Shown piece after piece: positions 2,737 through 16,411 of a DNA stretch of 64,000 nt; positions within the stretch are counted from its first letter, which is position 1; each line of letters begins with the position of its first letter. Under the pieces are notes generated by a model. That model was not told the origin of the DNA. It did no database searches and saw only the letters and a list, made by a program, of their open reading frames with translations. Made by a program: the position numbers and the translations under genes. This DNA is from Mycolicibacterium chubuense NBB4. Lineage in GTDB: Bacteria; Actinomycetota; Actinomycetes; Mycobacteriales; Mycobacteriaceae. The stretch covers positions 2,170,001 to 2,234,000 of the forward strand of contig NC_018027.1 of assembly GCF_000266905.1 (NCBI RefSeq), given 5' to 3'.

Positions 2737-3471
2737 CTAAGCTCTCGGCGACTCCGCCGGCCGGTGCCTGGCCGCGTTCACGGCGTGCAGCGTGTGACGC
2801 GTCGCCTCGGCCAGTGCGGTGCGTTCGTCCTCGGTCAGCGTCCCGCACACCCAGCCCCAGTGGGCGCTCACCGTGTCACCGACTGCCGGGGCCCTCGTCA
2901 GCGACGCGCCGTCTCTGCTCCAGCGCACCCGCTCCGGCGCGGGACCACCGAGCGTCAACGTCCCGGCATCGAGGGCCAGCGGTCTCGACACCATCTCGAC
3001 ATGCTCGCCATCGATTGATTCGACTGTGCCCCAACGGATCCGGCAGTTCTGCAGGACACGTAGCGGCGTCCCGGGATCGCGGTCGAGGAAGCGCACCCAC
3101 GGATACACGACGAACACGTGAAAACTGTGATGCGCCAACGTGTGCGCGGGTTCCACCGGCGCGTCCAGCAGGCCCGTCACCTGACCGGCGAACGCCGACC
3201 GCAGCCGCGTCAGCAGCTGACCGGCGTCGACCTCACCGAGGCCGGCACCGCCGACCCAGTAACTGCGCACCACCTCGGGATCGAGGGGGTCGTCGACGCC
3301 GGTCGACTCGGCGATCGCCTGAAGGTACGGCCAGGCTCCGTCGAACTCCCGCGCCACCGAGGCCATCTGCTCGCCGGCGCGCAGCAGCGCCCCCGAGTCC
3401 TCCGGCCCGCAGTAGCCGAGTTCGTTGGGCGGGAACGCGTACTGGGCGAACAGCCGGTGGCCTGCATTCAT
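2737..3471 (-). CDS. DUF6390 family protein, last gene of the hydrogenase operon
   Basis: A 244-residue soluble protein resembling the DUF6390 family found beside [NiFe]-hydrogenase maturation genes in actinobacteria. It contains an HHSFHVF segment and several Cys/Trp residues, but no motif I can assign to a known reaction. Its ATG overlaps the hypE stop by one base (TGATG), so translation is probably coupled to hypE. A TTG one codon earlier is possible but unnecessary. Role is inferred from context only: hydrogenase maturation or assembly. Confidence 0.7.
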   Translation of the reverse strand: MNAGHRLFAQYAFPPNELGYCGPEDSGALLRAGEQMASVAREFDGAWPYLQAIAESTGVDDPLDPEVVRSYWVGGAGLGEVDAGQLLTRLRSAFAGQVTGLLDAPVEPAHTLAHHSFHVFVVYPWVRFLDRDPGTPLRVLQNCRIRWGTVESIDGEHVEMVSRPLALDAGTLTLGGPAPERVRWSRDGASLTRAPAVGDTVSAHWGWVCGTLTEDERTALAEATRHTLHAVNAARHRPAESPRA

Positions 3472-4541
3472 CAACAGATCCGGGGCAGCTGCTCACCGAT
3501 CGGCAGATCCACCACGCGGGTGCCACCCAACGCGGTCTTCGCCACGACCATGCCCGGATGGTCGGCGACGCACGTCCCGATGATCGCCGCGCGCGCACCC
3601 AGCGGGTGGGCGCGCATCGCAGCGAGCACCCGGTCGGCGTCCGCGGCGGGAACGAAGGCGACGAGTTTGCCCTCGTTGGCGACGTAGAGCGGGTCGAGGC
3701 CGAGCATGCTGCACGCGTCGCGCACTTCTGCCGGGATCGGCAGCGCGCGCTCGTCGAGTGTCACGCCGACCCTCGCGGTCTTCGCGATCTCGTTGAGGGT
3801 GGCCGCCATGCCGCCGCGCGTCGGGTCGCGCAGGGTGTGGATGTCGGCGCCGGTCTGGATCATCGCCGCGACCAGGCCGTGCAGCGGGGCGGTGTCGCTG
3901 GCCACCCTGGTGGCGAACTCGAGGCCCTCACGGCAACTCATCACCGCCACCCCGTGCACTCCGATGTCGCCGCTGACGATCACGGCGTCACCCGGCGCCG
4001 CCCGCTGCGGCCGGATGTCGGTGCGCTCGTCGACCAGACCGATGCCCGCGGTGTTGATGTACACCCCGTCGCCGTGGCCGGAATCGACCACCTTGGTGTC
4101 GCCCGTGACCAGCTTGACCCCCGCCGCCATCGCCGCCGTGCCGACCGCCTGGGCGACGCGCGCCAGCTCGTCGAGCGGGGTGCCCTCCTCGAGGATGAAC
4201 GCGGTCGACAGCACCGCCGGGGCGGCGCCCACCATCGCGAGGTCGTTCACGGTCCCGTTGACGGCGAGGTCCCCGATCGTGCCGCCCGGGAACACCATCG
4301 GCTTGACGACGAACGAGTCGGTCGAGAACGCCAGCCGGACACCGCCGAGGTCGACGATCGCGGAGTCACCCATGGCCGCTTCGGCCGCAGGCCCGAACGA
4401 CGGCAGGAACAGGTGCTCGATGAGCTCACCCGACATCGCCCCGCCGCCGCCGTGGCCCATCACGATGTTGGGCGCATCGCGCAGCGGCGCCGGGCAGACC
4501 CACGACTCCATATCGATGGCCGCCTTGGGGGTCTCAGGCAT
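3471..4541 (-). CDS. hypE: Hydrogenase maturation protein HypE (carbamoyl dehydratase)
   Basis: HypE converts the carbamoyl group passed from HypF on its C-terminal cysteine into thiocyanate, giving the cyanide ligands of the [NiFe] site. The 356-residue protein has the glycine-rich start [12 protein letters not shown], the ATP-binding AIR-synthase-like core ([13 protein letters not shown]), and ends exactly in PRIC, the conserved tail carrying the modified cysteine. It overlaps hypD by 8 bp upstream and the DUF6390 gene by 1 bp downstream. All key features are present, so it should be functional. Confidence 0.97.
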
Positions 4542-5634
4542 TGCTCACCTCGAGCCTGCGGTACAGGTAGTACGCCGCGCACGCACCTTCCGACGAAACC
4601 ATGGTCGCGCCAAGCGGATTGCGGGGCGTGCACACGGTCCCGAACGCCGCGCACTCGTGCGGCTTGATCAGCCCCTGCAGCACCTCGCCCGACCGGCACA
4701 CCGCCGATTCCTCGGTGTGGATGTCGGTGACGGCGAACCGGTGTTCGGCGTCGTAGTCGCGGTAGGCGGGCGAGAGCCGCCACCCGCTGCCGGGAATCAC
4801 GCCGATCCCGCGCCACGACCGGTCGGTCACCTCGAACACGTCGGTCAGCATCTGCTTGGCGGCGGGATTCCCGGCCGCCTGCACGGCGCGAGGGTAGGCG
4901 TTCTCCAGCTCGTGACGGCCGGACTCGAGCTGCACGACGGTGCGCCGGATCCCCTCCAGGATGTCGAGGGGTTCGAAACCCGTGACGACGATCGGTATCC
5001 CGTACTTGTCGCACAGCGGCGGATACTCGTCGGTGCCCATCACGCTGCACACATGGCCCGCCGCCAGGAACGCTTGGACCCGGCACGTCGGCGACTCCAT
5101 GATCGCCGAGATCGCCGGCGGCACCAGCACGTGGGAGACCAGCAGCGAGAAATTCTCGATGCCGAGCCGTTTCGCCTGATAGACGGTCATCGCATTGGCC
5201 GGCGCGGTGGTCTCGAAGCCGATGCCGAAGAAGACGACCTCTTTGTCGGGGTTGTCCCGCGCGATCGTCAGCGCATCCAGCGGGGAGTAGACGACCCGGA
5301 CGTCGCCGCCTTCGCTCTTGACGCGGAACAGGTCTTTCTCGCTGCCCGGCACGCGCAGCATGTCGCCGAACGAGCAGAAGATCACGTCCGGGCGGGAAGC
5401 GATCTCGAGAGCCTTGTCGATGACCTCGAGCGGGGTGACGCACACCGGGCAGCCCGGCCCGTGGATCATCTCGATGGTGTCGGGCAGCAGCTGGTCGATG
5501 CCGTGCCGGATGATCGAATGCGTCTGCCCGCCACAGACTTCCATGATCGACCAACGGCGGCTGGTGGCCGCCTTGATCTGCTCGATGAGCCGCAGCGCGA
5601 CGTCGGGATTGCTGAACTCGTCCAGGTACTTCAT
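4534..5634 (-). CDS. hypD: Hydrogenase maturation protein HypD
   Basis: HypD is the iron-sulfur scaffold on which, with HypC, the Fe(CN)2CO group is assembled. The 366-residue protein shows the conserved motifs [25 protein letters not shown] and [10 protein letters not shown], plus the C-terminal 4Fe-4S cysteines (for example [16 protein letters not shown]). The ATG at 5634 overlaps the hypC stop (ATGA), indicating translational coupling. Sequence upstream in the same frame is out-of-frame hypC DNA and was excluded. Confidence 0.97.
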
Positions 5635-5948
5635 GACCGCGCCTCCGCATGTCCGTTCGTGTCGGGGTTGGCCACCCCGGCCTGCCGCGCCGCCGACTCG
5701 AAGCCGTCGGCGAACTCCTCTCGGAGCACGCCGAGATGTTCGAACTCCGCGAGGGTGCGCATCGCCGACTCCTCGTCGAGGCGCTGGATCGCGAACCCGA
5801 CGTGCACGACGACGTACTGACCGACCTCGGCATCCGGAATGTACTGCAGGCACACGTCTTTGCTGACACCGCCGAAGTCGACGACCGACATCAGCGTGCC
5901 GTCGCGCTCCTCGATGCTGATGATCCTCCCCGGTACCGCCAGGCACAT
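5631..5948 (-). CDS. hypC: Hydrogenase maturation chaperone HypC (first copy)
   Basis: A 105-residue HypC/HupF protein beginning MCLAVPG, where Cys2 is the residue that binds iron and contacts the large-subunit precursor. HypC shuttles the Fe(CN)2CO unit from HypD to the hydrogenase large subunit. It is slightly longer than typical (75-90 aa) because of a C-terminal helix. The start was fixed by the Cys2 requirement. It lies 13 bp after hypF and overlaps hypD by 4 bp. A second, divergent copy sits on the other side of hypF. Confidence 0.95.
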
Positions 5949-5961
5949 GGCGTCCTCCCTT

Positions 5962-8229
5962 CTATCCCGCGTTGCCGACGATGAGTTGCCCCAGCGCGAT
6001 GCCGCCGTCGTTGGGCGGCACGTAACGATGGGTGAGCACACCGATGCCGTTGTCGGCAAGCATGCCCCGCGTCAGTCCCAACAGCAGCGCATTCTGGAAC
6101 ACGCCGCCGGACAGCACGACCGGATAACCGCTGTTCTCGATCGCCAACTCGACGATCAGTGCGGCGACGGCGCGGTGGAAGCGCGCCCCGATGACCCCCG
6201 CAGAGACACCCGAGCGCCGGTCGGCGACGACGGCGGCGATCACCGGCGCGGGGTCGATCACCGCGGGGGAGCCGTCGTCGACGCGGAACCGATAGACGCC
6301 GACACCGGGGTCGTCCCCGCGCGACAGTCCCTCGAGTTCGATCGCCGCCTGCGCCTCGTAAGCCACCACCTGCCGCACGCCCGTCAGCGCCGCCACGGCG
6401 TCGAACAGCCTGCCCATGCTCGACGTCGGCACGCAGCCGAGTCCGGTCTCGAGCTGGTGGGCCAGCACGCGTCGTTCATCGGCGGGGCAGGCGAGTACCG
6501 GTGGCAGGTCGGACGCCCAGGACAGCCCGGCCGCCCACAGGTGTGCGAGCGCCATCCGGTACGGGCGCAGCACGCTGGTGTCTCCGCCCGCCAGCGGAAC
6601 GTAGCTCAGCCGGGCCAGCCGGCGGAAGCCCTTGTAGTCGGCGAGCAGCACCTCACCGCCCCAGACGGCGCCGTCGGTTCCGTAACCCGTTCCGTCGAAG
6701 GCGAATCCGAGGACCTTCCCGGTGCCGTCGCAACCGTGTTCGGCCATCACCGCGGCGATGTGGGCGTGGTGGTGCTGCACCGTCCGCACCGGGCGGTCCC
6801 GTGCGTTGCGGTGCGCCCAGCCCGTGGAGCGGTACCGCGGGTGTGCGTCGGCGACCAGGACCTCCGGGTCGACCCCGGTGAGCTCGCTCAGGTGACGTTC
6901 GGCGGAGTCGAAAGCCGACAACGTCGCGAGGTCGTCCATGTCGCCGATGTGCTGGCTCAGCCAGGCGTAGGTGCCGTCGGCCACGGCCATCGTGTTCTTC
7001 AGGTCGCCGCCCACGGCGAGCGTCGGTGGCACCGCGACGGGCAGGGCGATCGGCAGCGGGGCATAGCCGCGGGAACGCCGGATCGGCATGTCGGCGCGCA
7101 TCACCGAGTCGTCGCACGGCACCAGGATCGGCCGGTCGTGGGCCAGCCAGCCGTCGGCCAGGGGCGCCAGCCGAACCAGGGCATCGTCGTCGGTGAAGCA
7201 GATCGGCTCCCCGCCGAGATTGCCCGAGGTCATCACCAGCGTCTGCGGGCCCGGCTCGTCCCCGTCGAGGCCGAACAACAGGGCGTGCAGCGGCGTGTAG
7301 GCGAGCATGACGCCGAGATCGGGATTGTGCGGCGCCACCGAGTCGGCGACCGGAGCGCCGGCGCGCCGGGGCATCAGCACGATCGGCCGCGCCTGCCCGG
7401 TCAGCAGCGCGGCCGACGCGGGGTCCACCTCGACCACGGTCCGTGCGGCGGTCAGGTCGGGCACCATGACCGCGAACGGCTTGTCGCCGCGGCGTTTCCG
7501 GGCTCGCAGCGCAGCGACTGCGTCCGCGTCGCCCGCATCGCAGGCGAGGTGGTAGCCACCGATGCCCTTGACCGCGAGTATCTTGCCGTCGCGCAGCAGT
7601 CGCCTCGCCGCGGCCAGGCCGGCCTCGCCGTCGGCCTGGGCTCCGTTCGAGCTCCGGTAGTGCAGGCGCGGTCCGCAGACGGGGCAGCAGATCGGCTGGG
7701 CGTGGAACCGGCGGTCGGCGGGATCGGCGTACTCGCGAGCGCAGTCGGCGCACATCGCGAAGCGCGCCATCGTGGTGGAGGCGCGGTCGTAGGGCAGCGC
7801 GCCGATGATCGTGAACCGCGGCCCGCAGTTGGTGCAGTTGATGAACGCGTGCCGGTGGCGCCGGTCGCCGGGGTCGCGCAGTTCGGCGGCGCAGTCGGCG
7901 CACATCGCGACGTCGGGCGAGGCCAGTGTGCGGCCGCCGTCGGTGCGGGTGGTGTCGCCGATGGTGAAGCCGGTGCCGCCGGCGAGAGGGACATCTGACG
8001 TCTCGACGGCTTCGACGACTGCCAGTGGCGGAGGGTGGTCGCGCAGCCGGCTCAGGAAGTCGTCGATGTCGGCGGCGGCGCCCTCGACCTCCACGACGGC
8101 ACCCGTGCTGTCGTTGCGCACCGAGCCCGACAACCCGAGCAGCGTCGCCTGGCTGTAGACGAAGGGCCGGAATCCGACACCCTGCACCACGCCGCGCACG
8201 CAGACGCGAATCCGCCGACGCCCGGTCAT
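5962..8229 (-). CDS. hypF: Carbamoyltransferase HypF
   Basis: HypF makes carbamoyl-AMP from carbamoyl phosphate and transfers the carbamoyl group to HypE. The 755-residue protein shows, in order, an acylphosphatase domain (VQGVGFRPFVYSQA, about residues 10-95), paired zinc fingers (CADC, CTNC, CADC and CPVC, about 115-190), a YrdC-like domain (KGIGGYHLACDA, about 200-390), and a Kae1-like C-terminal domain (FDGTGYGTDGAVWGGE and HHAHIAAV metal-binding motifs, with LSGGVFQN near the end). The ATG at 8229 overlaps the second hypC stop (ATGA). Full length for the family. Confidence 0.97.
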   Translation of the reverse strand: MTGRRRIRVCVRGVVQGVGFRPFVYSQATLLGLSGSVRNDSTGAVVEVEGAAADIDDFLSRLRDHPPPLAVVEAVETSDVPLAGGTGFTIGDTTRTDGGRTLASPDVAMCADCAAELRDPGDRRHRHAFINCTNCGPRFTIIGALPYDRASTTMARFAMCADCAREYADPADRRFHAQPICCPVCGPRLHYRSSNGAQADGEAGLAAARRLLRDGKILAVKGIGGYHLACDAGDADAVAALRARKRRGDKPFAVMVPDLTAARTVVEVDPASAALLTGQARPIVLMPRRAGAPVADSVAPHNPDLGVMLAYTPLHALLFGLDGDEPGPQTLVMTSGNLGGEPICFTDDDALVRLAPLADGWLAHDRPILVPCDDSVMRADMPIRRSRGYAPLPIALPVAVPPTLAVGGDLKNTMAVADGTYAWLSQHIGDMDDLATLSAFDSAERHLSELTGVDPEVLVADAHPRYRSTGWAHRNARDRPVRTVQHHHAHIAAVMAEHGCDGTGKVLGFAFDGTGYGTDGAVWGGEVLLADYKGFRRLARLSYVPLAGGDTSVLRPYRMALAHLWAAGLSWASDLPPVLACPADERRVLAHQLETGLGCVPTSSMGRLFDAVAALTGVRQVVAYEAQAAIELEGLSRGDDPGVGVYRFRVDDGSPAVIDPAPVIAAVVADRRSGVSAGVIGARFHRAVAALIVELAIENSGYPVVLSGGVFQNALLLGLTRGMLADNGIGVLTHRYVPPNDGGIALGQLIVGNAG

Positions 8230-8480
8230 CCCGACTCCTCGGCGACCTGACCTCTGCCCAGCAGCTCGAGCCCGGCCAGTGCCGCGTCCGCGCCTGCCCT
8301 GTCCGTCTTCTCGACCACGAAGCCCATGTGGATGATCACCCAGTCCCCGGCGGCGAACGTCTCCTCGGGCAGCATCCCGACGTTCACCCTGCGCTGGTCT
8401 CCAGCGACATCGACGAGGGCGAGTTGGCCGCCGTAGCCGGCCACCATGCCGATGACCTGACCCGGAATCCCCAGACACAT
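8226..8480 (-). CDS. hypC: Second HypC/HupF-type chaperone
   Basis: An 84-residue protein beginning MCLGIPGQV, with the catalytic Cys2 and Pro6 of HypC. It is clearly different from the copy at 5631-5948, including in its C-terminal half. In systems with two HypC-like proteins one copy often acts as a chaperone specific to one large subunit (compare HypC/HybG and HupF/HoxL), so the two may divide labour between HypD delivery and HhyL binding. It is in tight order with the protease (3 bp) and hypF (4 bp overlap). Confidence 0.9.
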   Translation of the reverse strand: MCLGIPGQVIGMVAGYGGQLALVDVAGDQRRVNVGMLPEETFAAGDWVIIHMGFVVEKTDRAGADAALAGLELLGRGQVAEESG

Positions 8481-8483
8481 GAT

Positions 8484-8975
8484 TCAGTCCCTTCCGGCCG
8501 CAGCATGGGCCAGGAGGTCGGCGACGACGCCCTCGAGGGCCCGCACCGCGACCGGGACGGCCGCGGCGACGCGTTCCGACAGGCCCAGTGTCTCTTCGAC
8601 CGTGTCGACCTCGCACCCGACGACCACGGTGCGCGGCGGCGTCCCGCCCAGTGCGGTCAGGCTCGCGAACACCGCCGCCGGATCCATCGCGTGCGCGTCG
8701 AGACCGGCCTTCGCCGAGAGGTTTTCGTGGTCGGCCTCGAACACGTGCACCGAGCCGGGCGCGCCGCGGTCGGGCAGCGCGTCGACGAGAACGAGGGTGG
8801 CGCACTCCTCGAGCAGGTCGTAGGCCAGGTGCATGCCGCCGATGCCGTAATCGGCCACCGCGACGCCGGGTCCGAGGTTGCGGGAGACACGACGGATCAC
8901 CTCGGGTCCGAAGCCGTCATCTCCGAGGAAGATGTTGCCGATTCCGGCGACCAGGATTCGTGACGTGATGGGCAC
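8484..8975 (-). CDS. Hydrogenase maturation endopeptidase (HupD/HybD family)
   Basis: A 163-residue protease that removes the C-terminal tail of the hydrogenase large subunit after nickel insertion. It starts with the family signature GIGNIFLGDDGFGPEV, whose acidic residue is a nickel ligand, and contains DYGIGGMHLAYDLLE and the LVDALPDRG strand. The expected substrate is the 22-residue tail of HhyL (after His576). It lies 3 bp from the second hypC and 11 bp after the small membrane-peptide gene. Confidence 0.93.
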   Translation of the reverse strand: MPITSRILVAGIGNIFLGDDGFGPEVIRRVSRNLGPGVAVADYGIGGMHLAYDLLEECATLVLVDALPDRGAPGSVHVFEADHENLSAKAGLDAHAMDPAAVFASLTALGGTPPRTVVVGCEVDTVEETLGLSERVAAAVPVAVRALEGVVADLLAHAAAGRD

Positions 8976-8986
8976 CTGTCCTCAGG

Positions 8987-9106
8987 TCACATCCGGCGCA
9001 TCTTCAGATAGCGCTGGACATCCGGGATCGACCGCACCCCGATGACCGCGCCCGCGAGAATCGCTGCGGCCACCACGACCACGGCGATCCAACCGACTAC
9101 TTCCAT
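8987..9106 (-). CDS. DUF6893-like 39-residue membrane peptide
   Basis: A tiny gene encoding about 39 residues: a short N-terminus, one hydrophobic helix (VGWIAVVVVAAAILAGAVIG), then a basic tail (RSIPDVQRYLKMRRM). Translation was read directly from the sequence. It overlaps the 3' end of the 450-residue gene by 10 bp and sits 11 bp before the protease gene, so it lies inside the operon with matching orientation and spacing. It resembles the short DUF6893 family. It could anchor the soluble hydrogenase or an accessory protein to the membrane; that role is inference. Confidence 0.72.
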   Translation of the reverse strand: MEVVGWIAVVVVAAAILAGAVIGVRSIPDVQRYLKMRRM

Positions 9107-10449
9107 TTCGCGCTCCTTTCCTCGAGCGGTTCCACTTCGTCGGGTGCGAAGTACAGATAGCGGCCGTACCAGTCGTGCATGTCGGCGGCCGGGTCGTCCT
9201 CGAGGATCACTGCGATGTGCTGAGCCCCGTCGACGTCTTCATGGACCGAGGCCACCTGCGCGATTCGGTCGGCGTAGAACAGATCCTGCGCGTCGGCGCG
9301 CCGGCAGGGATGCAACCGGACGCGGCTGCCGCGGGCGACTCGAGTCCCGTTCACCAGCACCGCGTCGACGTCCGGGCGGACCGCGGTGTCGGCCTGCGGA
9401 TCCCACCAGTCGACGTCGTCGGGAATCTCGGGAATGAGCTGCGATCCGGGTGCTGCATGCGGATTCCGCAACACGCCGTGGAGATCCAGCATGGCCTCGG
9501 GCGACATCGAGTCGCACCGGTCGATGATCCGGGCGGCGAGCGGGTCGGTGGCGCGGGCCTGCGCCTTCTCCTCGTCGGTCATTGTCATCACCCGAAGCGT
9601 CAGGATCTCGTCGATCTCGCAGGCGTCGTAGAGGTCGCCCTGGCTCTGTTCGGCGATCTCAGGGTGGTCGTAGAGGATGATCGGGGAGACCAGCACCAGC
9701 CTGCGGTCGCCGGGTGGGCCCGCGAGCACGGGGAAGCAGCGGTGCTGCCGGCATCGCTGCGCGGCGGCTGCCGCGGGAGAAGGCGGCTCCAGCAGCGAGA
9801 CGAACTCTCCGCCGCCGATCTCCAGCAGCAGATGGGTACCGATCAGGGAGACCGCGATCGCCTCGTCCCTGTCGGACGCCGGTGGGGCCGCGTTGCGCAC
9901 CTCCACGGCGAGCCGCAGCAGTCCGTCGTCCGGTTCGGCGGAGATCGCGAGCGTCCCGTACACCCCGCGGCGCCGGCGCACCAGCCTGCCGCCCTCGACG
10001 CCTTCCACGTCGATCCCGCCGGGCACCGAGATGTCCAGCGCACGCGGCAGTGACGCGACGTCGAGGGGCCCGATCGCGATCTCCCGCTCGACCGCCTCGT
10101 CCCAGCTGACCCACCCATGCTGACCGCTCCGAAGTTCGTCGACGGGTTCGTATCCGCCGCGGCCGTCCTCGCGTTCGACCCCGCGGTGCTGCAGCTGCAG
10201 GAACCGCACGACGCCGGACAGCGTGGGTGCGCCGTGCGGGTCGACGAGCAGCTGCGCGCACATCGCCGCGTTCTCCCCGAGGCCCGAGACCTCGGCGCCC
10301 GAGGGGCCCAGCACCCCGAACTGCCAGCGCGACTGGTTCTTCGACGAGGTCGCGCGGTACGGGTAGAGCAGGTAACCCTCGTAGAGCACGGCGTCGGCGA
10401 CGGCGCGGGCCCGGTCCCATGCGGTGCTCCTCGCGTCCGGGGTGGTCAT
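9097..10449 (-). CDS. Conserved hydrogenase-locus protein of unknown function (450 aa)
   Basis: A 450-residue soluble protein with no signal peptide or membrane segment. I do not recognise a catalytic motif. It has an N-terminal segment typical of this operon class (EGYLLYPYRATSSKNQSRWQFG) and a His/Cys patch (QRCRQHRCFPVLAG, about 235-250). The middle is beta-rich and the C-terminus acidic (LYFAPDEVEPLEE). It overlaps the DUF6084 gene by ATGA and the DUF6893-like peptide gene by 10 bp, so it is firmly part of the hydrogenase operon. Role unknown: assembly, cofactor or electron transfer are all open. Confidence 0.75.
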   Translation of the reverse strand: MTTPDARSTAWDRARAVADAVLYEGYLLYPYRATSSKNQSRWQFGVLGPSGAEVSGLGENAAMCAQLLVDPHGAPTLSGVVRFLQLQHRGVEREDGRGGYEPVDELRSGQHGWVSWDEAVEREIAIGPLDVASLPRALDISVPGGIDVEGVEGGRLVRRRRGVYGTLAISAEPDDGLLRLAVEVRNAAPPASDRDEAIAVSLIGTHLLLEIGGGEFVSLLEPPSPAAAAAQRCRQHRCFPVLAGPPGDRRLVLVSPIILYDHPEIAEQSQGDLYDACEIDEILTLRVMTMTDEEKAQARATDPLAARIIDRCDSMSPEAMLDLHGVLRNPHAAPGSQLIPEIPDDVDWWDPQADTAVRPDVDAVLVNGTRVARGSRVRLHPCRRADAQDLFYADRIAQVASVHEDVDGAQHIAVILEDDPAADMHDWYGRYLYFAPDEVEPLEERSAKWK

Positions 10450-11084
10450 CGCAGCTCCTTCGCCGCGGCCAGCAGCTCACTGATGGCGTCGTCGAAGCCG
10501 AGAAGTCCGCGGGCCGAGCGGTAGGCGGCGAGTGCGTCGACGCACTCGCGGCTCAGCCGCAGCCACGCGGTGCCGGGGTAGTGCGCTGCGATGAGATCGC
10601 GCCAGACCGACACCGGCATGTCGTGGCGCTCCTCGCGGTCCCACGGCACCTGCTCGACACCGAAGCCGTGGGTGCCGCGGACGAAAACCGTTCCGCTGAA
10701 CAGGAACTGCAGCGGCACCGCGCCGTCCCGCAGCGCCAGGAGGTATTTCGCCGCCTTCACCTCGAAGTCGTAGGTGCACTCCAGCGGCAGCGCGACCTCG
10801 GCGGCCCCGGAGAAGCCGGGCACCATGGCCGTCGTGTGCTGCCACAGGAAGGTGTTCTGGGTGGCCGACCACCGTTCGCGCGGCCCGAACAGGTCGAGCA
10901 GTCCGGCCGCCTCGTCGTCGGAGTAGTTGCGCCGCAACGGTTCGATGCGCACCTGGCACCGTAGTGCGATCGCGTGGATCGGCTCGTCGCCGAGCGCGGC
11001 GATGCCGACGCGGGCAGTCAGGACCGGGGTGACCGCGTAGGGCTCGGGTGCCACGTCGAGGACGGCGAAGGTCAGATCGGTCAT
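10446..11084 (-). CDS. DUF6084 family protein of the hydrogenase locus
   Basis: A 212-residue protein beginning MTDLTFAV, like the DUF6084 proteins that accompany group 1h hydrogenases. It is mostly beta-strand with no membrane segment. A segment FGPRERWSATQNTFLWQH is followed by VPWDREERHDMPV. No catalytic residues can be assigned. The start at 11084 overlaps the DUF5947 stop (ATGA), and its stop overlaps the next start (ATGA), so three consecutive unknowns are translationally coupled and probably act together. Confidence 0.75.
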   Translation of the reverse strand: MTDLTFAVLDVAPEPYAVTPVLTARVGIAALGDEPIHAIALRCQVRIEPLRRNYSDDEAAGLLDLFGPRERWSATQNTFLWQHTTAMVPGFSGAAEVALPLECTYDFEVKAAKYLLALRDGAVPLQFLFSGTVFVRGTHGFGVEQVPWDREERHDMPVSVWRDLIAAHYPGTAWLRLSRECVDALAAYRSARGLLGFDDAISELLAAAKELR

Positions 11085-11716
11085 GCCCGCCCCACCGCCC
11101 GGGCGCGCGCGTCGAGCAGCCCGAAGAACTCCTCGAGGTAGTCGCGCACCTCCTGGCCGCCGTCGAATCCGCGCCACAGCATGCGCAACCGGCCGACGAA
11201 CTCGTAGCAGGCGTCGATGGGCAGGAGGTAGGCCTGGGGCGCGCCATCGCGATCCTCGGGCACCCGCACCAGTAGCGCCTCGGTGTCGGCGGCCGGGCTG
11301 TCCACCCGCGGATCGACCGTGCGAACCTCGTCCCACGCCCGCAGATCCAGTTCCGACTCGGTGGCGCCTGCCGGGCCCGGATAGAACGCGACGGTGCGTC
11401 CCAGCGACGAGTTCGAGAAGAAGAACGCCAGGCCGACCGGGATCTGCAGCGCCTCCCACTGGCGGCGGTCCATCGCGAAGTCGGGGAACGCGAGGTAGCG
11501 ATCGGGCACCGCCCGGTAGCGCAGTTCCGCGGCGGTGTCGGTGAACAGCAGATAGCAGCCGCGACAGACACACATCAGTTGCCGGTCTTCGACATTGACC
11601 ACATGCTGGTGCTCGTCGGCGATCGGCTCGGCGCACATCTCGCACAGTTCTCCCTGGGCTCGCGGCGTTCCGCGCCCGGCCCGGATGCGGGCCAGCACGT
11701 CGAACGCCCCGTCCAT
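11081..11716 (-). CDS. DUF5947 family protein with N-terminal zinc-ribbon-like cysteines
   Basis: A 211-residue protein of the hydrogenase-associated DUF5947 type. Near the N-terminus it has CEMC, then MCVCRGC about 20 residues later, a spacing suited to a zinc ribbon or small Fe-S site. The rest is soluble and rich in aromatic residues (LAFFFSNSSLGR). Its ATG overlaps the stop of the NifU/Rieske-like gene by one base (TGATG) and its own stop overlaps DUF6084. Function unknown; a metal-binding assembly factor is an inference. Confidence 0.77.
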   Translation of the reverse strand: MDGAFDVLARIRAGRGTPRAQGELCEMCAEPIADEHQHVVNVEDRQLMCVCRGCYLLFTDTAAELRYRAVPDRYLAFPDFAMDRRQWEALQIPVGLAFFFSNSSLGRTVAFYPGPAGATESELDLRAWDEVRTVDPRVDSPAADTEALLVRVPEDRDGAPQAYLLPIDACYEFVGRLRMLWRGFDGGQEVRDYLEEFFGLLDARARAVGRA

Positions 11717-12603
11717 CAGGCCACCTCCACGGCAGGCGTGACCGCCATCGACAGCACGCCGTCGCGCTCGAGCAGCGGGATCGGCTCCAGGTGTCCGTCG
11801 GCGACGCCGGCGTCGACACCGGCGCCGGCGAGGACCACGTCGTACCCGGCGGCGCAGTGCGGGCACCGCAGCACCGCACCGCTGAGCCGAGCGCCGGCCA
11901 GCGAACCCGAGCAGCCCGGGCACCGGTCGTGGTAGGCGAACACCTCCGCACCGACGCGGCACGCCAGCACCGTCATGCCGGCCACCCGGAAGCCGCCGAC
12001 CTCGGCGTCGCTCAGGCCGGCCAGTTCGGGTACGCCGCACCAGGTCGTCGTGTGCGCGTGCACCCGGCTCAGCAGTGCGTCGGCCGGGATGACCGCTGCT
12101 GGGGAATCCGTCTCGGCGGCAAGCACTTCGATGTCGGAAACCTCCGGCGCGGCCGCGCGGATCGCGTCCTGCACCGCGAGTTCCAGAGTCACCGCCGAGG
12201 ACGGGCAGCTGCGGCAGCTGCCCTGGAAACGCAGACTCACCACGCCGTCGGCGACCCCCAGCAGCGACACGTCACCACCGTGCGAGCCGAGATACGGCCG
12301 CACGCCGTCCAGCGCCGCCGACACCCGCTGCTCGACGGTATGTGGGTGCAGGCCGTGCACCAGCAGCAGGCTGGCCACCAGCCCGTCGGCCGCGAAGTCC
12401 TCGGCCAGTTCCGGGTTCGCGGTCACCGCCGCCCCGAGCATCCGTTCCAGCGCTGCTCCGTAGAGGTCGGTGATCTCGCGCACCAGCTGCTCGGCGCGTT
12501 CCCGCGCGACTGTGCCGCCGGCCGCGGACGCGTCCAGCAGGGTCTGGATCCGGTCGCCTGCCGTGCGCCACCTCTCGTCGTCTCGGGCTGCGGTCGGCGC
12601 CAT
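11716..12603 (-). CDS. NifU-domain / Rieske-like fusion protein of the hydrogenase operon
   Basis: A 295-residue protein. Residues about 85-160 form a NifU C-terminal (Nfu) domain with GSCRSCPSS, C130 and C133 being the usual Fe-S scaffold cysteines. Residues about 175-290 resemble a Rieske fold, but where Rieske proteins have CxH...CxxH this one has RCPGC (C228, C231) and RCPHC (C247, C250). An all-cysteine site of this kind could hold a rubredoxin-type iron, zinc or a plant-type 2Fe-2S cluster. It lies directly after hhyL (3 bp), so cluster delivery to the hydrogenase or electron transfer from it is likely but unproven. Confidence 0.82.
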   Translation of the reverse strand: MAPTAARDDERWRTAGDRIQTLLDASAAGGTVARERAEQLVREITDLYGAALERMLGAAVTANPELAEDFAADGLVASLLLVHGLHPHTVEQRVSAALDGVRPYLGSHGGDVSLLGVADGVVSLRFQGSCRSCPSSAVTLELAVQDAIRAAAPEVSDIEVLAAETDSPAAVIPADALLSRVHAHTTTWCGVPELAGLSDAEVGGFRVAGMTVLACRVGAEVFAYHDRCPGCSGSLAGARLSGAVLRCPHCAAGYDVVLAGAGVDAGVADGHLEPIPLLERDGVLSMAVTPAVEVA

Positions 12604-12606
12604 CCC

Positions 12607-14403
12607 CTAGTCCCCGGTGACCGACTGGGTGGGGGAGTGCAGCAGTTTGAGCTCCTTGCCGCCACCGAGATACATGTGCACACCGCAGGGCAGACACGGG
12701 TCGAAGCTGCGTACCGTGCGCATGACATCGATGCCCTTGAAGTGCTCCCGGTCGTTCTCCTCGAAGATCGGTTGGCCCTGCACCGCATCCTCGTACGGCC
12801 CGGGTGTGCCGTAGCTGTCCCGGGGGTTGGCGTTCCACGGGGTCGGCGGATAGGGATGGTAGTTCGCGATCTTGCCGTCGCGGATCACCATGTGGTGCGA
12901 CAGCACCCCGCGCACCGCCTCGGTGAAACCGCAACCGATTCCCTCGTCGGGCACCTCGAAGGTCTCCCACGTCTTGGTGCGTCCGGCGCGGATCTCGCCC
13001 AGCGCCTTCTCGGCGAAATGCAGGGCGCACGCCGCGGCGTAGGCCTGGAAGTAGGTGCGCGCCCGGTTGCGTTCGAGGGTGTTGCTGCCGTGTTGCGGCA
13101 CCTTCCACTCGAACTCGACAGGACCCTTGAGCGCCGTCTTCGGCAGGTTGATCTGCACGCTGGTGCCGGTCGCTTTGACGTAGCCGATGTCGACGAGGCC
13201 GGCGAGCGCCGTCGACCACAGCCGGGCCAGCGGGCCGCCGCCGGTGTCGAGCGCCAGGTGGTCCTTGCCGTCGAACCAGCGCGGCGACATCACCCAGCTG
13301 TAGTTGCCGTCGAAGTCGCGCTTCTGCGGTTTGGGGTTGGTGTGCTGGTTCCACGGGTGACGCCGATCGATCGGGTTGCCGAGCGGATCGGTCTTGACGA
13401 ACATCTCCTGGTCGGACCAGTCGTCATAGTAGGAGTGGCCCAACAGAATTCGGATGCCGAGGTTGATGTCGACCAGCGAATGCGTGTGCAGCTTGCCGTC
13501 GACGACCACGCCGGGCGTGACGAACATCGCGTCCCCCCAGCGCTCCATGTCCTTGTAGGCGAAGTTGCACACCTCGGGATCCTGGAAGGAGCCCCAGCAG
13601 CCGAGCAGGGTCCGGCGCAGGCCCACCTTCTCGTACCCCGGCAGCGCGTCGTAGAAGAAGTCGAACAGGTCGTCGTGCATCGGGACGACCTTCTTCATGA
13701 ACTCGACGTAGCGCATGAGCCGGGTCATGTAGTCGGTCATCAGCTGAACCGTGGCGGTGGTGCCGATACCGCCCGGGTACAGGGTGGACGGGTGGACGTG
13801 CCGTCCCTCCATGAGGCAGAACATCTCTCGGGTCCACCGACTGACCTGCAGCGCCTCGCGGTAGAACTCGCCGGTGAACGGGTTGAGCGCGCGCATGATG
13901 TCGGCGATCGTGCGGTGACCGTGCATGTCGGCGTGCGGCGCCTCGGTGTTCTCCGCCGTGCGCAGGACACTCGGGTTGGTCTCGGAGACCATCTTCTCGC
14001 AGTAGTCCACGCCGACCAGGTTCTCCTGGAAGATGTTGTGGTCGAACATGTATTCCGCGGCCTCGCCGAGATTGATCAGCCACTCGCCCAGGTGCGGGGG
14101 TTTGACGCCGTAGGCCATGTTCTGGCAGTAACACGAACAGGTGGCGTGGTTGTCGCCGCAGATTCCGCAGATGCGGCTGGTGATGAAATGCGCGTCGCGG
14201 GGGTCCTTGCCTTTCATGAAGATCGAGTAGCCGCGGAAGATCGACGACGTGCTGTGGCACTCGACGACCTCCCGGTTCTCGAAGTCGATCTTGGTGTAGA
14301 TGCCGAGGCTGCCGACGATGCGGGTGATCGGGTCCCAGGCCATCTCCACCAGTTGGCCGGGCTCACGCTTGACTTGGGACGGCTCGGGGATGATCGTTGT
14401 CAT
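12607..14403 (-). CDS. hhyL: Group 1h [NiFe]-hydrogenase large subunit
   Basis: A 598-residue catalytic subunit that splits H2 at the Ni-Fe centre. Both nickel-binding motifs are intact: RICGICGDNHATCS (C79, C82) and DPCLPCGVH (C570, C573). After His576 come 22 residues that the neighbouring endopeptidase should remove. The L1 form RICGICGDNHATCS is typical of the high-affinity, oxygen-tolerant group 1h enzymes (M. smegmatis Hyd2/Hhy). The start MTTIIPEP at 14403 was chosen because upstream sequence in frame is intergenic; it lies 89 bp after hhyS. Cytoplasmic or membrane-associated. Confidence 0.97.
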   Translation of the reverse strand: MTTIIPEPSQVKREPGQLVEMAWDPITRIVGSLGIYTKIDFENREVVECHSTSSIFRGYSIFMKGKDPRDAHFITSRICGICGDNHATCSCYCQNMAYGVKPPHLGEWLINLGEAAEYMFDHNIFQENLVGVDYCEKMVSETNPSVLRTAENTEAPHADMHGHRTIADIMRALNPFTGEFYREALQVSRWTREMFCLMEGRHVHPSTLYPGGIGTTATVQLMTDYMTRLMRYVEFMKKVVPMHDDLFDFFYDALPGYEKVGLRRTLLGCWGSFQDPEVCNFAYKDMERWGDAMFVTPGVVVDGKLHTHSLVDINLGIRILLGHSYYDDWSDQEMFVKTDPLGNPIDRRHPWNQHTNPKPQKRDFDGNYSWVMSPRWFDGKDHLALDTGGGPLARLWSTALAGLVDIGYVKATGTSVQINLPKTALKGPVEFEWKVPQHGSNTLERNRARTYFQAYAAACALHFAEKALGEIRAGRTKTWETFEVPDEGIGCGFTEAVRGVLSHHMVIRDGKIANYHPYPPTPWNANPRDSYGTPGPYEDAVQGQPIFEENDREHFKGIDVMRTVRSFDPCLPCGVHMYLGGGKELKLLHSPTQSVTGD

Positions 14404-14492
14404 CGGAAAATCTCTTCTCTGTGTGACGTCGTGCAGCGCAGGGCATTTCGGCCGCTGAGGCCGCGGTACGAGGACGGGGGAGGGCGCCGCAC

Positions 14493-15548
14493 CTACCAGG
14501 TGCGGGTCGCCCCCGTCTCGAGCCGTGTGCCCGGATGCCGCCATCGGGGCTCTTTGTCGACGGTGCGACCTGTGACGTGGCGCAGGCTGCGGATCACCGA
14601 GCCGTACAGCTGCGAGGCGGTGCTCGACAACTTGCCGCCCGGCGGCTCGTCCATGAACGGCATGAACTTGTCGGGGAACCCCGGCATGGTGCACCCGATG
14701 CAGATGCCACCGACGTTCGGGCACCCGCCGATACCGTTGATCCAGCCCCGCTTCGGGACGTTGCACTTGACCACTGGGCCCCAACAGCCAAGCTTGACAA
14801 TGCATTTCGGGGAGCCGTACTCGGTCGCGAAGTCACCCTGCTCGTAGTAACCCGCGCGGTCGCACCCTTCGTGCACGGTGGCACCGAACAACCAGGTGGG
14901 CCGCAGAGCCTCGTCCAGCGGGATCATCGGCGCCTGGTCGGTCGCCATGTACAGCAGATAGGTGAGCGTCTCGGCCAGGTTGTCGGGCTGGATCGGGCAG
15001 CCCGGTACGCACACGATGGGTATGCCCGCCTTGCTCTTCCAGTCCCATCCGAGGTAGTCGGGGACCCCCATGGCGCCGGTGGGATTTCCGGCCATCGCGT
15101 GGATGCCGCCGTAGGTGGCACAGGTGCCGACCGCGACGACGGCGGTGGCCTTGGGCGTCAGCCGGTCGAGCCATTCACTGGTGGTCATGGGTTGGCCCGT
15201 CGCCGGGTCGTTGCCGAACCCGCACCAGTAGCCAGCCTCCTTGATCTTCTCGTTGGGAATCGACCCTTCGACGACCAGCACGAAGGGATCGATCTCGCCC
15301 CTGTCGGCTCTGAAGAACCACTCGAGGAAATCGTCGGCGCCCCCGCTCGGACCGCATTCGAAGTCGATCAGGGGCCAGTGCACGGCGATCTTGGGCAGGC
15401 CGGGAAGCGCGCCCAGCGCGATCTCCTCGATGCTGGGTTGCGTGGCGGCAGTCAACGCCACGGAATCGCCGTCACAACTCAATCCGGCATTGATCCACAG
15501 GACGTGGATCAGTGCCTCTTCCGCTTTGACTGCTGCCTCACTCGGCAT
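14493..15548 (-). CDS. hhyS: Group 1h [NiFe]-hydrogenase small subunit
   Basis: A 351-residue Fe-S electron-transfer subunit without a Tat signal, so the enzyme is cytoplasmic-facing. The N-terminal proximal-cluster motif reads LSCDGDS: C25 is present but the second cysteine is replaced by D28 (CxxD). Three-Cys/one-Asp ligation of the proximal cluster is known for actinobacterial-type group 1h hydrogenases. Further cluster ligands are visible (GTCATYGG, VPGCPI, HEGCDRAGYYEQG, KLGCWGPVVKCN, GGCPNVGGICIGC). It is followed by hhyL and preceded by 98 bp that may carry its own promoter. Confidence 0.97.
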   Translation of the reverse strand: MPSEAAVKAEEALIHVLWINAGLSCDGDSVALTAATQPSIEEIALGALPGLPKIAVHWPLIDFECGPSGGADDFLEWFFRADRGEIDPFVLVVEGSIPNEKIKEAGYWCGFGNDPATGQPMTTSEWLDRLTPKATAVVAVGTCATYGGIHAMAGNPTGAMGVPDYLGWDWKSKAGIPIVCVPGCPIQPDNLAETLTYLLYMATDQAPMIPLDEALRPTWLFGATVHEGCDRAGYYEQGDFATEYGSPKCIVKLGCWGPVVKCNVPKRGWINGIGGCPNVGGICIGCTMPGFPDKFMPFMDEPPGGKLSSTASQLYGSVIRSLRHVTGRTVDKEPRWRHPGTRLETGATRTW

Positions 15549-15631: not shown

Positions 15632-15660
15632 GGTTTACTCCCGGTGTTATGTCTTGTCAA
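15632..15660 (-). promoter_or_regulatory. Possible hhySL promoter
   Basis: Reading leftward, TTGACA (15660-15655, inside the last codons of hypB) is followed after 17 bases by TAAACC (15637-15632). This -35/-10 pair with ideal spacing lies 84 bp before the hhyS start. It could let the structural genes be expressed apart from hypAB. The -35 match is perfect but the -10 is weak. Confidence 0.35.
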
Positions 15661-16411
15661 CGGAGGTTTGGGACATAGTTTCGGCACGGTCGGCGATCCA
15701 GTCGTACCAGGCGGACATGCCCTCGCCCGTCGTCGCCGACACCGGCAGGATCGTCACTGCCGGGTTCAGCGATCGGGCATGCGCACAGCACATCTCGAGA
15801 TCGAAGTCGACATACGGCAGCAGATCGGTCTTGTTGACGACGACGAGGCCGGCGGCGGCGAACATGTGCGGGTATTTCAGCGGCTTGTCCGCCCCTTCGG
15901 TCACCGACACCACCACGACTTTGCTGTTCTCGCCGAGGTCGAACAGCGCGGGACAGACCAGGTTGCCCACGTTCTCGATGAACAGCAGCGTGCCGCGGGC
16001 AGGGTCGAGGCGGTGCAGCGCCCGGTGGACCATGTCCGCGTCGAGGTGGCAGCCGGCGCCGGTGTTGACCTGCACTGCTGCCGCACCCGCGGCGCGGATG
16101 CGCTCGGCGTCGATGAGCGTCTCCTGGTCGCCCTCGATGACGGCCACCGCACGATCCAGGGACAGCTCCCGGATCGTGCGTTCGAGCAGCGTGGTCTTGC
16201 CCGCGCCCGGCGAACTCGTGAGGTTCAGCGCGAGGATCCCGCATTCGGTCAGCCAGCGCCGGTTCTCATCGGCCTGCGCGTCGTTGCGGGCGAGCACCTT
16301 GTGCTCCAGAGCGACGGTCTCGGTGTGCGGGTGATCGTGGTCGTGAGCGTGGGGATGGCCCGGCAGCGTGACGACGGCGCCGTCGTCGCCGCAGCCGCAC
16401 GTTGCGCACAT
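15647..16411 (-). CDS. hypB: Nickel-inserting GTPase HypB
   Basis: HypB is the GTPase that, with HypA, inserts nickel into the large subunit. The 254-residue protein has the N-terminal MCATCGCG metal site (Cys2, Cys5, Cys7), a histidine-rich stretch (GHPHAHDHDHPHTE, about residues 18-31) for nickel storage, the P-loop SSPGAGKTT and the NKTDLLPY guanine-specificity motif. It begins one base after the hypA stop. Its last codons overlap the proposed hhyS promoter. Confidence 0.97.
   Translation of the reverse strand: MCATCGCGDDGAVVTLPGHPHAHDHDHPHTETVALEHKVLARNDAQADENRRWLTECGILALNLTSSPGAGKTTLLERTIRELSLDRAVAVIEGDQETLIDAERIRAAGAAAVQVNTGAGCHLDADMVHRALHRLDPARGTLLFIENVGNLVCPALFDLGENSKVVVVSVTEGADKPLKYPHMFAAAGLVVVNKTDLLPYVDFDLEMCCAHARSLNPAVTILPVSATTGEGMSAWYDWIADRAETMSQTSVDKT

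Follow-up and report, generated by a model that had tools for sequence, protein, structure and literature searches.

A conserved four-gene block of group 1h hydrogenase loci and the candidate membrane-anchor peptide encoded in it

The window analysed here, a stretch of 64,000 nucleotides from Mycolicibacterium chubuense NBB4 (NC_018027.1, positions 2,170,001 to 2,234,000), carries on its minus strand the operon of a group 1h hydrogenase (Hhy), in the order hypB-like gene, hhyS, hhyL, hhyE, DUF5947, DUF6084, a gene for a protein of 450 amino acids (aa), DUF6893, a HycI-type protease gene, hypC, hypF and further hyp genes (Table 1). The subject of this study is the block of four genes between hhyE and the protease gene, the last of which encodes a peptide of only 39 aa. 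A first-pass annotation had described these four as an overlapping series, and its coordinates and overlaps proved to be exact: the ATG of DUF5947 shares one base with the stop codon of hhyE (TGATG), the DUF5947/DUF6084 and DUF6084/450-aa junctions are ATGA overlaps, and the 450-aa and DUF6893 genes overlap by 10 bp. The block is a deeply conserved group 1h cassette, and we propose its DUF6893 peptide as a candidate membrane anchor of group 1h hydrogenases.

Conservation was followed in 114 loci: the window, 28 actinobacterial stretches, five plasmid stretches and 80 named loci (L124–L203). The named loci are the best 80 of 569 relatives found when named genomes were searched with the 450-aa family, and they therefore give no measure of how often group 1h loci are without the 450-aa gene. 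They come from Pseudomonadota, Verrucomicrobiota, Chloroflexota, Acidobacteriota, Planctomycetota, Vulcanimicrobiota (Eremiobacterota), Dormibacterota-type bins and Actinomycetota; the loci as a whole include near-duplicates (L104 and L168; L092 and L186, with identical HhyL). All five genes from hhyL to the 450-aa gene lie on one strand in 94 of the 114 loci, and the uninterrupted order hhyL-hhyE-DUF5947-DUF6084-450-aa gene, the check that the first-pass annotation had proposed, is kept in 92 of these 94. In the other two, both from Verrucomicrobiota, DUF5947, DUF6084, the 450-aa gene and hycI have shifted as a unit to the front of hhyS. The three genes DUF5947, DUF6084 and 450-aa follow one another without interruption in 105 of the 114 loci, and the 450-aa gene leads into hycI, directly or with the peptide in between, in 104. 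Among the 80 named loci, each absent gene coincides with a contig end, with the sole exception of DUF6084 in Minicystis (L176); DUF6084 is also absent from three streptomycete relatives (L096, L097 and L122). In the Solihabitans locus (L162) the block is split: DUF5947, DUF6084 and the peptide follow hhyS-hhyL-hhyE, and the 450-aa gene is the first of an operon on the opposite strand that also contains hycI and hyp genes. Thus the genes are not scattered elsewhere in other genomes, and the exceptions either shift whole pieces of the block or are short of one gene. One actinobacterial 1h locus (L102, 9391-10824, of genome G042) has hhyE followed by DUF6084 at a distance of 0.28 kb, with no DUF5947, through either a loss or an assembly fault.

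A survey started from HhyL covered 296 genomes of Actinomycetota, with matches taken at 1e-60. HhyL was matched in 40 genomes, and our tally gives 27 of the 40 with an HhyL at least 65% identical to that of the window; in all 296 genomes, DUF6084 was found in 27, the 450-aa protein in 27 and DUF5947 in 26. Among the 27 genomes with the closer HhyL, the 450-aa gene is present in 24 (missing from G042 and G103, at contig ends, and from G184, a fragment), DUF5947 in 25 (missing from G042, with no contig end between its neighbours, and G184) and DUF6084 in 24 (missing from G128 and G171, where the absence is real, and G184). Twelve of the 13 genomes with only a more distant HhyL have none of the three, and the thirteenth (G216) has DUF6084 and the 450-aa gene. 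Two further genomes (G189 and G290) have block genes without an HhyL match. In G189, G216 and G290 the block genes sit on contigs that end within 1 kb.

The block also tracks a single HhyL clade, group 1h, among the sampled loci. In a quick tree, all 89 HhyL sequences of block loci fall on one side of a branch with a support of 100, and 13 HhyL from 12 loci without the block fall on the other, where the tree tool flags long branches. None of the four block genes occurs in these 12 sampled loci with a distant HhyL. The HhyL of the window belongs to the clade of Cupriavidus necator HofG. The first-pass annotation had suggested a dedicated complex; for a dedicated group 1h module, the conserved gene order across phyla and the absence of the block from the sampled loci with distant HhyL are strong support. 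The distant clade (L107–L118; HhyL 35–44% identical to the C. necator copy) has a layout of its own: hhyS and hhyL are separated by 0.26–1.9 kb in 11 of its 12 loci, 8 of the 12 have two hycI-like genes, and most have an hhyE-like gene.

Junctions were counted in 112 loci, L102 and L103 being excluded from the 114, with a start-picking rule that favours -4/-1 starts where present; pairs without a candidate start were dropped (four at the first and two at the third junction). ATGA or TGATG junctions join hhyE to DUF5947 in 71 of 98 pairs, DUF5947 to DUF6084 in 49 of 105 (another 39 overlap in other ways), DUF6084 to the 450-aa gene in 97 of 105, and the 450-aa gene to hycI in 79 of 97. Under the same rule, control pairs gave 3/86 (hhyS/hhyL), 3/53 (hypF/hypC), 11/54 (hypC/hypD), 21/68 (hypD/hypE) and 43/94 (hhyL/hhyE). 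Tight coupling is a feature of the family, strongest in the block but not unique to it, and extends into hhyE and hycI.

The peptide profile finds matches in 95 of the 114 loci and in none of the 12 non-1h loci. Behind one predicted membrane helix, the peptide ends in the strongly conserved C-terminus (D/E)-x-x-R-Y-x5-M-COOH. In 104 copies, counted from the stop codon, Y at -7 is present in 100%, R at -8 in 97% and M at -1 in 99%, figures that partly reflect selection of the profile seeds by this very motif. A plain count of D/E(-11), R(-8), Y(-7) and M(-1) found the motif in 103 of 42,070 open reading frame (ORF) tails, against 0.05 expected in shuffled tails, and 98 of the 103 are profile matches. 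Over the last 14 codons, the copies are most alike at the second codon position (0.74) and least at the third (0.48), as in coding DNA. Most copies are 32–39 residues long; 97 of 104 have a 19-residue hydropathy of at least 1.6, and the last 12 residues carry a mean net charge of +2.7. In the window, no other hydrogenase protein tested reaches 1.6: the maximum is 1.02 for HhyL and 1.30 for HhyS, so that, judged by hydropathy only, neither has a membrane helix of its own.

Two of the 104 matches lie away from both hycI and the 450-aa gene, one behind DUF6084 (L162) and one a second copy (L089). Of the 19 loci without a match, eight end at a contig end (L092, L100–L103, L159, L186 and L191). The three streptomycete relatives have a divergent peptide directly after DUF5947, in which the Y is replaced and the C-terminus extended, and weak matches occur after hycI in L165 and 2.8 kb further on in L163. 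Two loci of Eremiobacterota (L156, 11912-12049; L174, 5187-5324) encode a longer peptide with the RY motif twice. The second copy stands at the extreme C-terminus, which suggests that docking falls to the tail and not to the helix. At the position of the peptide, no gene is entered in the tables of pHG1, M. parvus, M. intracellulare and S. fungicidicus, which can be incomplete. Searches of a limited literature collection by DUF names and by anchor, small-protein and HhyE terms found no account of it among the items listed.

The membrane is a recurrent theme in published work on these enzymes, cited here from extracts of the reports. Hyd-1h of Methylacidiphilum is described as having no helix or signal peptide, yet it is membrane-associated; its affinity drops on isolation, and the membrane association is reported to be important for high affinity (PMC7174314). 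By what route such helix-less 1h enzymes come to the membrane is stated to be open (PMC7174314, PMC13332983), and the second report says that how this hydrogenase meets the membrane remains to be elucidated.

From the conserved order, the confinement to the 1h clade in the sampled loci and the sequence features, all directly observed, we infer that the block may be an assembly and membrane-docking cassette specific to the high-affinity hydrogenase Hhy of group 1h, a reading that we hold to be evenly balanced between right and wrong. Neither HhyS nor HhyL would contribute a membrane segment. The DUF6893 peptide would insert one helix into the membrane with its basic, strongly conserved C-terminal tail facing the cytoplasm, and the tail would dock the hydrogenase, or its partner HhyE, so that electrons reach quinone. 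DUF5947 might bind metal and serve as an adaptor towards HhyE, with DUF6084 as its dispensable partner, and the 450-aa protein, with a DrmA-like beta domain and an SH3-like barrel, could act as a scaffold that helps to pass the large subunit to the protease HycI. A more specific version holds that DUF6893 is the missing 1h membrane anchor, whose tail fits into the cytoplasmic enzyme and is required for H2 oxidation at atmospheric affinity, and that the cassette re-uses a DrmA-related beta domain as assembly scaffold; this is possible, with the balance leaning somewhat to the other side.

Several observations weigh against these proposals. The Methylacidiphilum enzyme is reportedly membrane-associated without homologous hypothetical proteins, two other hypothetical membrane proteins being described in its operon (PMC7174314), and Methylacidiphilum is also reported to be without hhyE (PMC6688271). 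For C. necator, a cytoplasmic enzyme of low affinity is reported (PMC7174314), although its locus encodes the peptide. As a rule the closest neighbour of the peptide is the protease gene and not a structural gene: 93 of 104 copies lie no more than 1 kb behind hycI. No peptide was seen in L084, L098, L099 and L195. Outside the window, some other proteins also pass a hydropathy of 1.6 (HhyS 5/92, HhyE 7/108, DUF5947 2/110, DUF6084 6/109, HycI 11/106 and 17 of 136 segments of the 450-aa protein). The streptomycete relatives have the 450-aa gene before hhyS instead of before hycI. Finally, not every DUF6893 gene belongs to an intact hydrogenase locus: of the 31 matches, found in 26 of the 296 genomes, some lie elsewhere.

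These other settings of DUF6893 are of several kinds, with gene names given as our reading of the ORFs. One copy lies between the hypF and hypD ORFs (L212). A congeneric mycobacterium without an HhyL match (L209, 3900-9060) has a relic consisting of hypA-like and hypB-like genes, a shortened hhyS, the peptide, the protease gene and hypF, from which hhyL through the 450-aa gene are gone. A second genomic context of the family is seen in L211 (around 2158-2250) and L214 (around 5044-5136), where DUF6893 stands outside a hydrogenase operon, near a response-regulator ORF and adjoining a long Ala/Pro-rich ORF; in L214 the copy is about 5 kb from hhyS. Copies such as the last two, together with the Methylacidiphilum report, favour the view that the peptide serves not as an anchor but as a small regulator or in quality control, Hhy attaching through HhyE or a respiratory complex. 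Against this stand the occurrence of the peptide at the majority of 1h loci and its C-terminal motif, whose conservation exceeds what a bare membrane helix would require; we think this view unlikely.

In the PDB, the structural subunits closely match only HofG and HofK, both of entry 5AA5, which for HhyL is the only match at E<=1e-50. The search gave no significant PDB relative for the three larger block proteins or for the pHG1 peptide, and the sequence profile of DUF6084 no PDB match even at E<=1; these matches do not show a stable complex. The solution of the 1h enzyme as HofG plus HofK is in keeping with a role in maturation only, in which all four products would be 1h-specific assembly factors that correspond in function to the Hox maturation proteins and part from the finished enzyme, and the peptide would keep the protease, or an intermediate of maturation, at the membrane. 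The lead of the 450-aa gene into hycI and the closeness of the peptide to hycI point the same way. However, the peptide is not behind hycI in the mycobacterial loci and in L162, and the membrane association of the mature enzyme would stay unexplained. We rate this explanation as rather doubtful. The rival explanations partly overlap, and their probabilities need not add up to one.

The family alignment of DUF5947 has seven invariant Cys and His residues (C25, C28, H36, H38, C49, C51 and C54), which perhaps form a zinc-finger-like site. As a candidate rubredoxin or Rieske protein DUF5947 was rejected: at E<=0.1 it matches just PF19372 and, weakly and under the cut-off, PF24461. Its gene nearly always adjoins hhyE, which is reported to be required for H2 uptake in M. 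smegmatis (PMC6883350). The same report names MSMEG_2717, one of the downstream hypothetical proteins and related to PHG067, as candidate electron acceptor, and gene order would identify DUF5947 with PHG067/MSMEG_2717. If so, DUF5947 could bind a redox cluster and be itself the acceptor after HhyE, as published for PHG067; the invariant residues and the place beside hhyE agree with this electron-transfer role, which we nevertheless consider improbable.

The 450-aa protein has no Pfam or NCBIfam family at E<=0.1. A hidden Markov model (HMM) of DrmA, the helicase of the anti-phage system DISARM, matches 31 of 59 members of its family at E<=1 (best 1.8e-8), the window member not among them, and in nine relatives the matches are confined to positions 123-351 of the 1018 of the profile. 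The top structural matches of the 450-aa protein, by Foldseek and VIA-align, are 7s9w and 7s9v, which are DrmA. The family probably has a domain related to one of DrmA, the candidate counterpart being the N-terminal beta (jelly-roll) domain of the latter. The protein is not DrmA itself, as the tandem RecA helicase domains are missing from its 450 aa, it has an SH3-like C-terminus, and the overall superposition is poor (TM 0.25 by query length). In several loci two ORFs take its place, of 335 and 107 aa in G216, for example, and lying in different frames in L144, L145 and L149.

Table 1. Genes of the group 1h hydrogenase operon in the M. chubuense NBB4 window
Feature	Position	Strand	Evidence
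HypB-like GTPase	15647..16411	-	PF02492; same place in L082, L083, L090, L121
HhyS, group 1h small subunit	14493..15548	-	PF01058/PF14720; 5AA5 HofK 545 bits
HhyL, group 1h large subunit	12607..14403	-	PF00374 (on longer ORF 12607-14805); 5AA5 HofG 1075 bits; 77% identity to pHG1 copy
HhyE, NifU-like domain and two C-terminal CxxC motifs	11716..12603	-	Pfam NifU; Rieske match below cut-off
DUF5947 protein, 211 aa	11081..11716	-	PF19372, 243 bits (cut-off 25)
DUF6084 protein, 212 aa	10446..11084	-	PF19562, 317 bits (cut-off 25)
450-aa protein: N-terminal DrmA-like beta domain, helical linker, C-terminal SH3-like barrel	9097..10449	-	HMM and structure matches
DUF6893 predicted single-pass membrane peptide, 39 aa, C-terminal PDVQRYLKMRRM; proposed membrane anchor	8987..9106	-	PF21833, 52 bits (cut-off 24.6); conservation, hydropathy
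HycI-type hydrogenase maturation protease	8484..8975	-	PF01750, TIGR00072 above cut-off
HypC chaperone	8226..8480	-	PF01455, TIGR00074 above cut-off
HypF carbamoyltransferase	5962..8250	-	TIGR00143, 718 bits

Further along the minus strand, the window has a second HypC-like ORF (5706-5948), extra to hypC and adjoining hypD, and the hyp gene cluster is closed by DUF6390 (2737-3474; PF19927, 301 bits), a further hydrogenase-linked protein without known function that recurs in several related hhy loci. The M. intracellulare plasmid (L121, 4018-18618) carries the whole hhy block, and NADH-quinone oxidoreductase genes A–G start 0.7 kb after hypC.

Group 1h hydrogenases contribute to the soil sink for atmospheric H2. 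A tiny, conserved and deletable peptide makes the question of their membrane association directly testable, and the other three block genes offer definite starting points for producing oxygen-insensitive hydrogenases in heterologous hosts.

The hofKG copy of pHG1 (C. necator) has the same genes in the same order as the window. The hhy operon of M. smegmatis (MSMEG_2722-2718 and downstream genes) and hhyLS-hhaABC of Thermomicrobium roseum could be compared by their published descriptions, in which the downstream genes are hypothetical: hhaABC are given as conserved hypotheticals up-regulated together with hhyLS (PMC6776052), and ‘four hypothetical proteins’ are reported for a Rhodococcus cluster (PMC13332983). 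The wording ‘not yet described’ of the first-pass annotation therefore holds only in part; the neighbours are in print as conserved hypotheticals (PMC6776052, PMC6883350, PMC13332983), only their function being undescribed, and what we add is the proposal of the peptide as anchor and of the DrmA-like domain, together with the invariant Cys/His set of DUF5947. The likeness of the barrel to the SH3-like subunits PetP and PsaE carries no function, SH3-like barrels being common and KOW, Tudor and BAH domains matching as well. The closest parallel to the proposed role of DUF6893 is HucM of the group 2a hydrogenase Huc (PMC10017518), the shared proposed role being to tie a high-affinity hydrogenase to the membrane. 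HucM is, according to that report, a 188-aa oligomer scaffold with a coiled-coil tube, whereas DUF6893 has 39 aa and one predicted helix. The peptide is therefore no HucM-type anchor (around 190 aa, with an N-terminal scaffold and a C-terminal coiled-coil tube), and the two are comparable in role alone.

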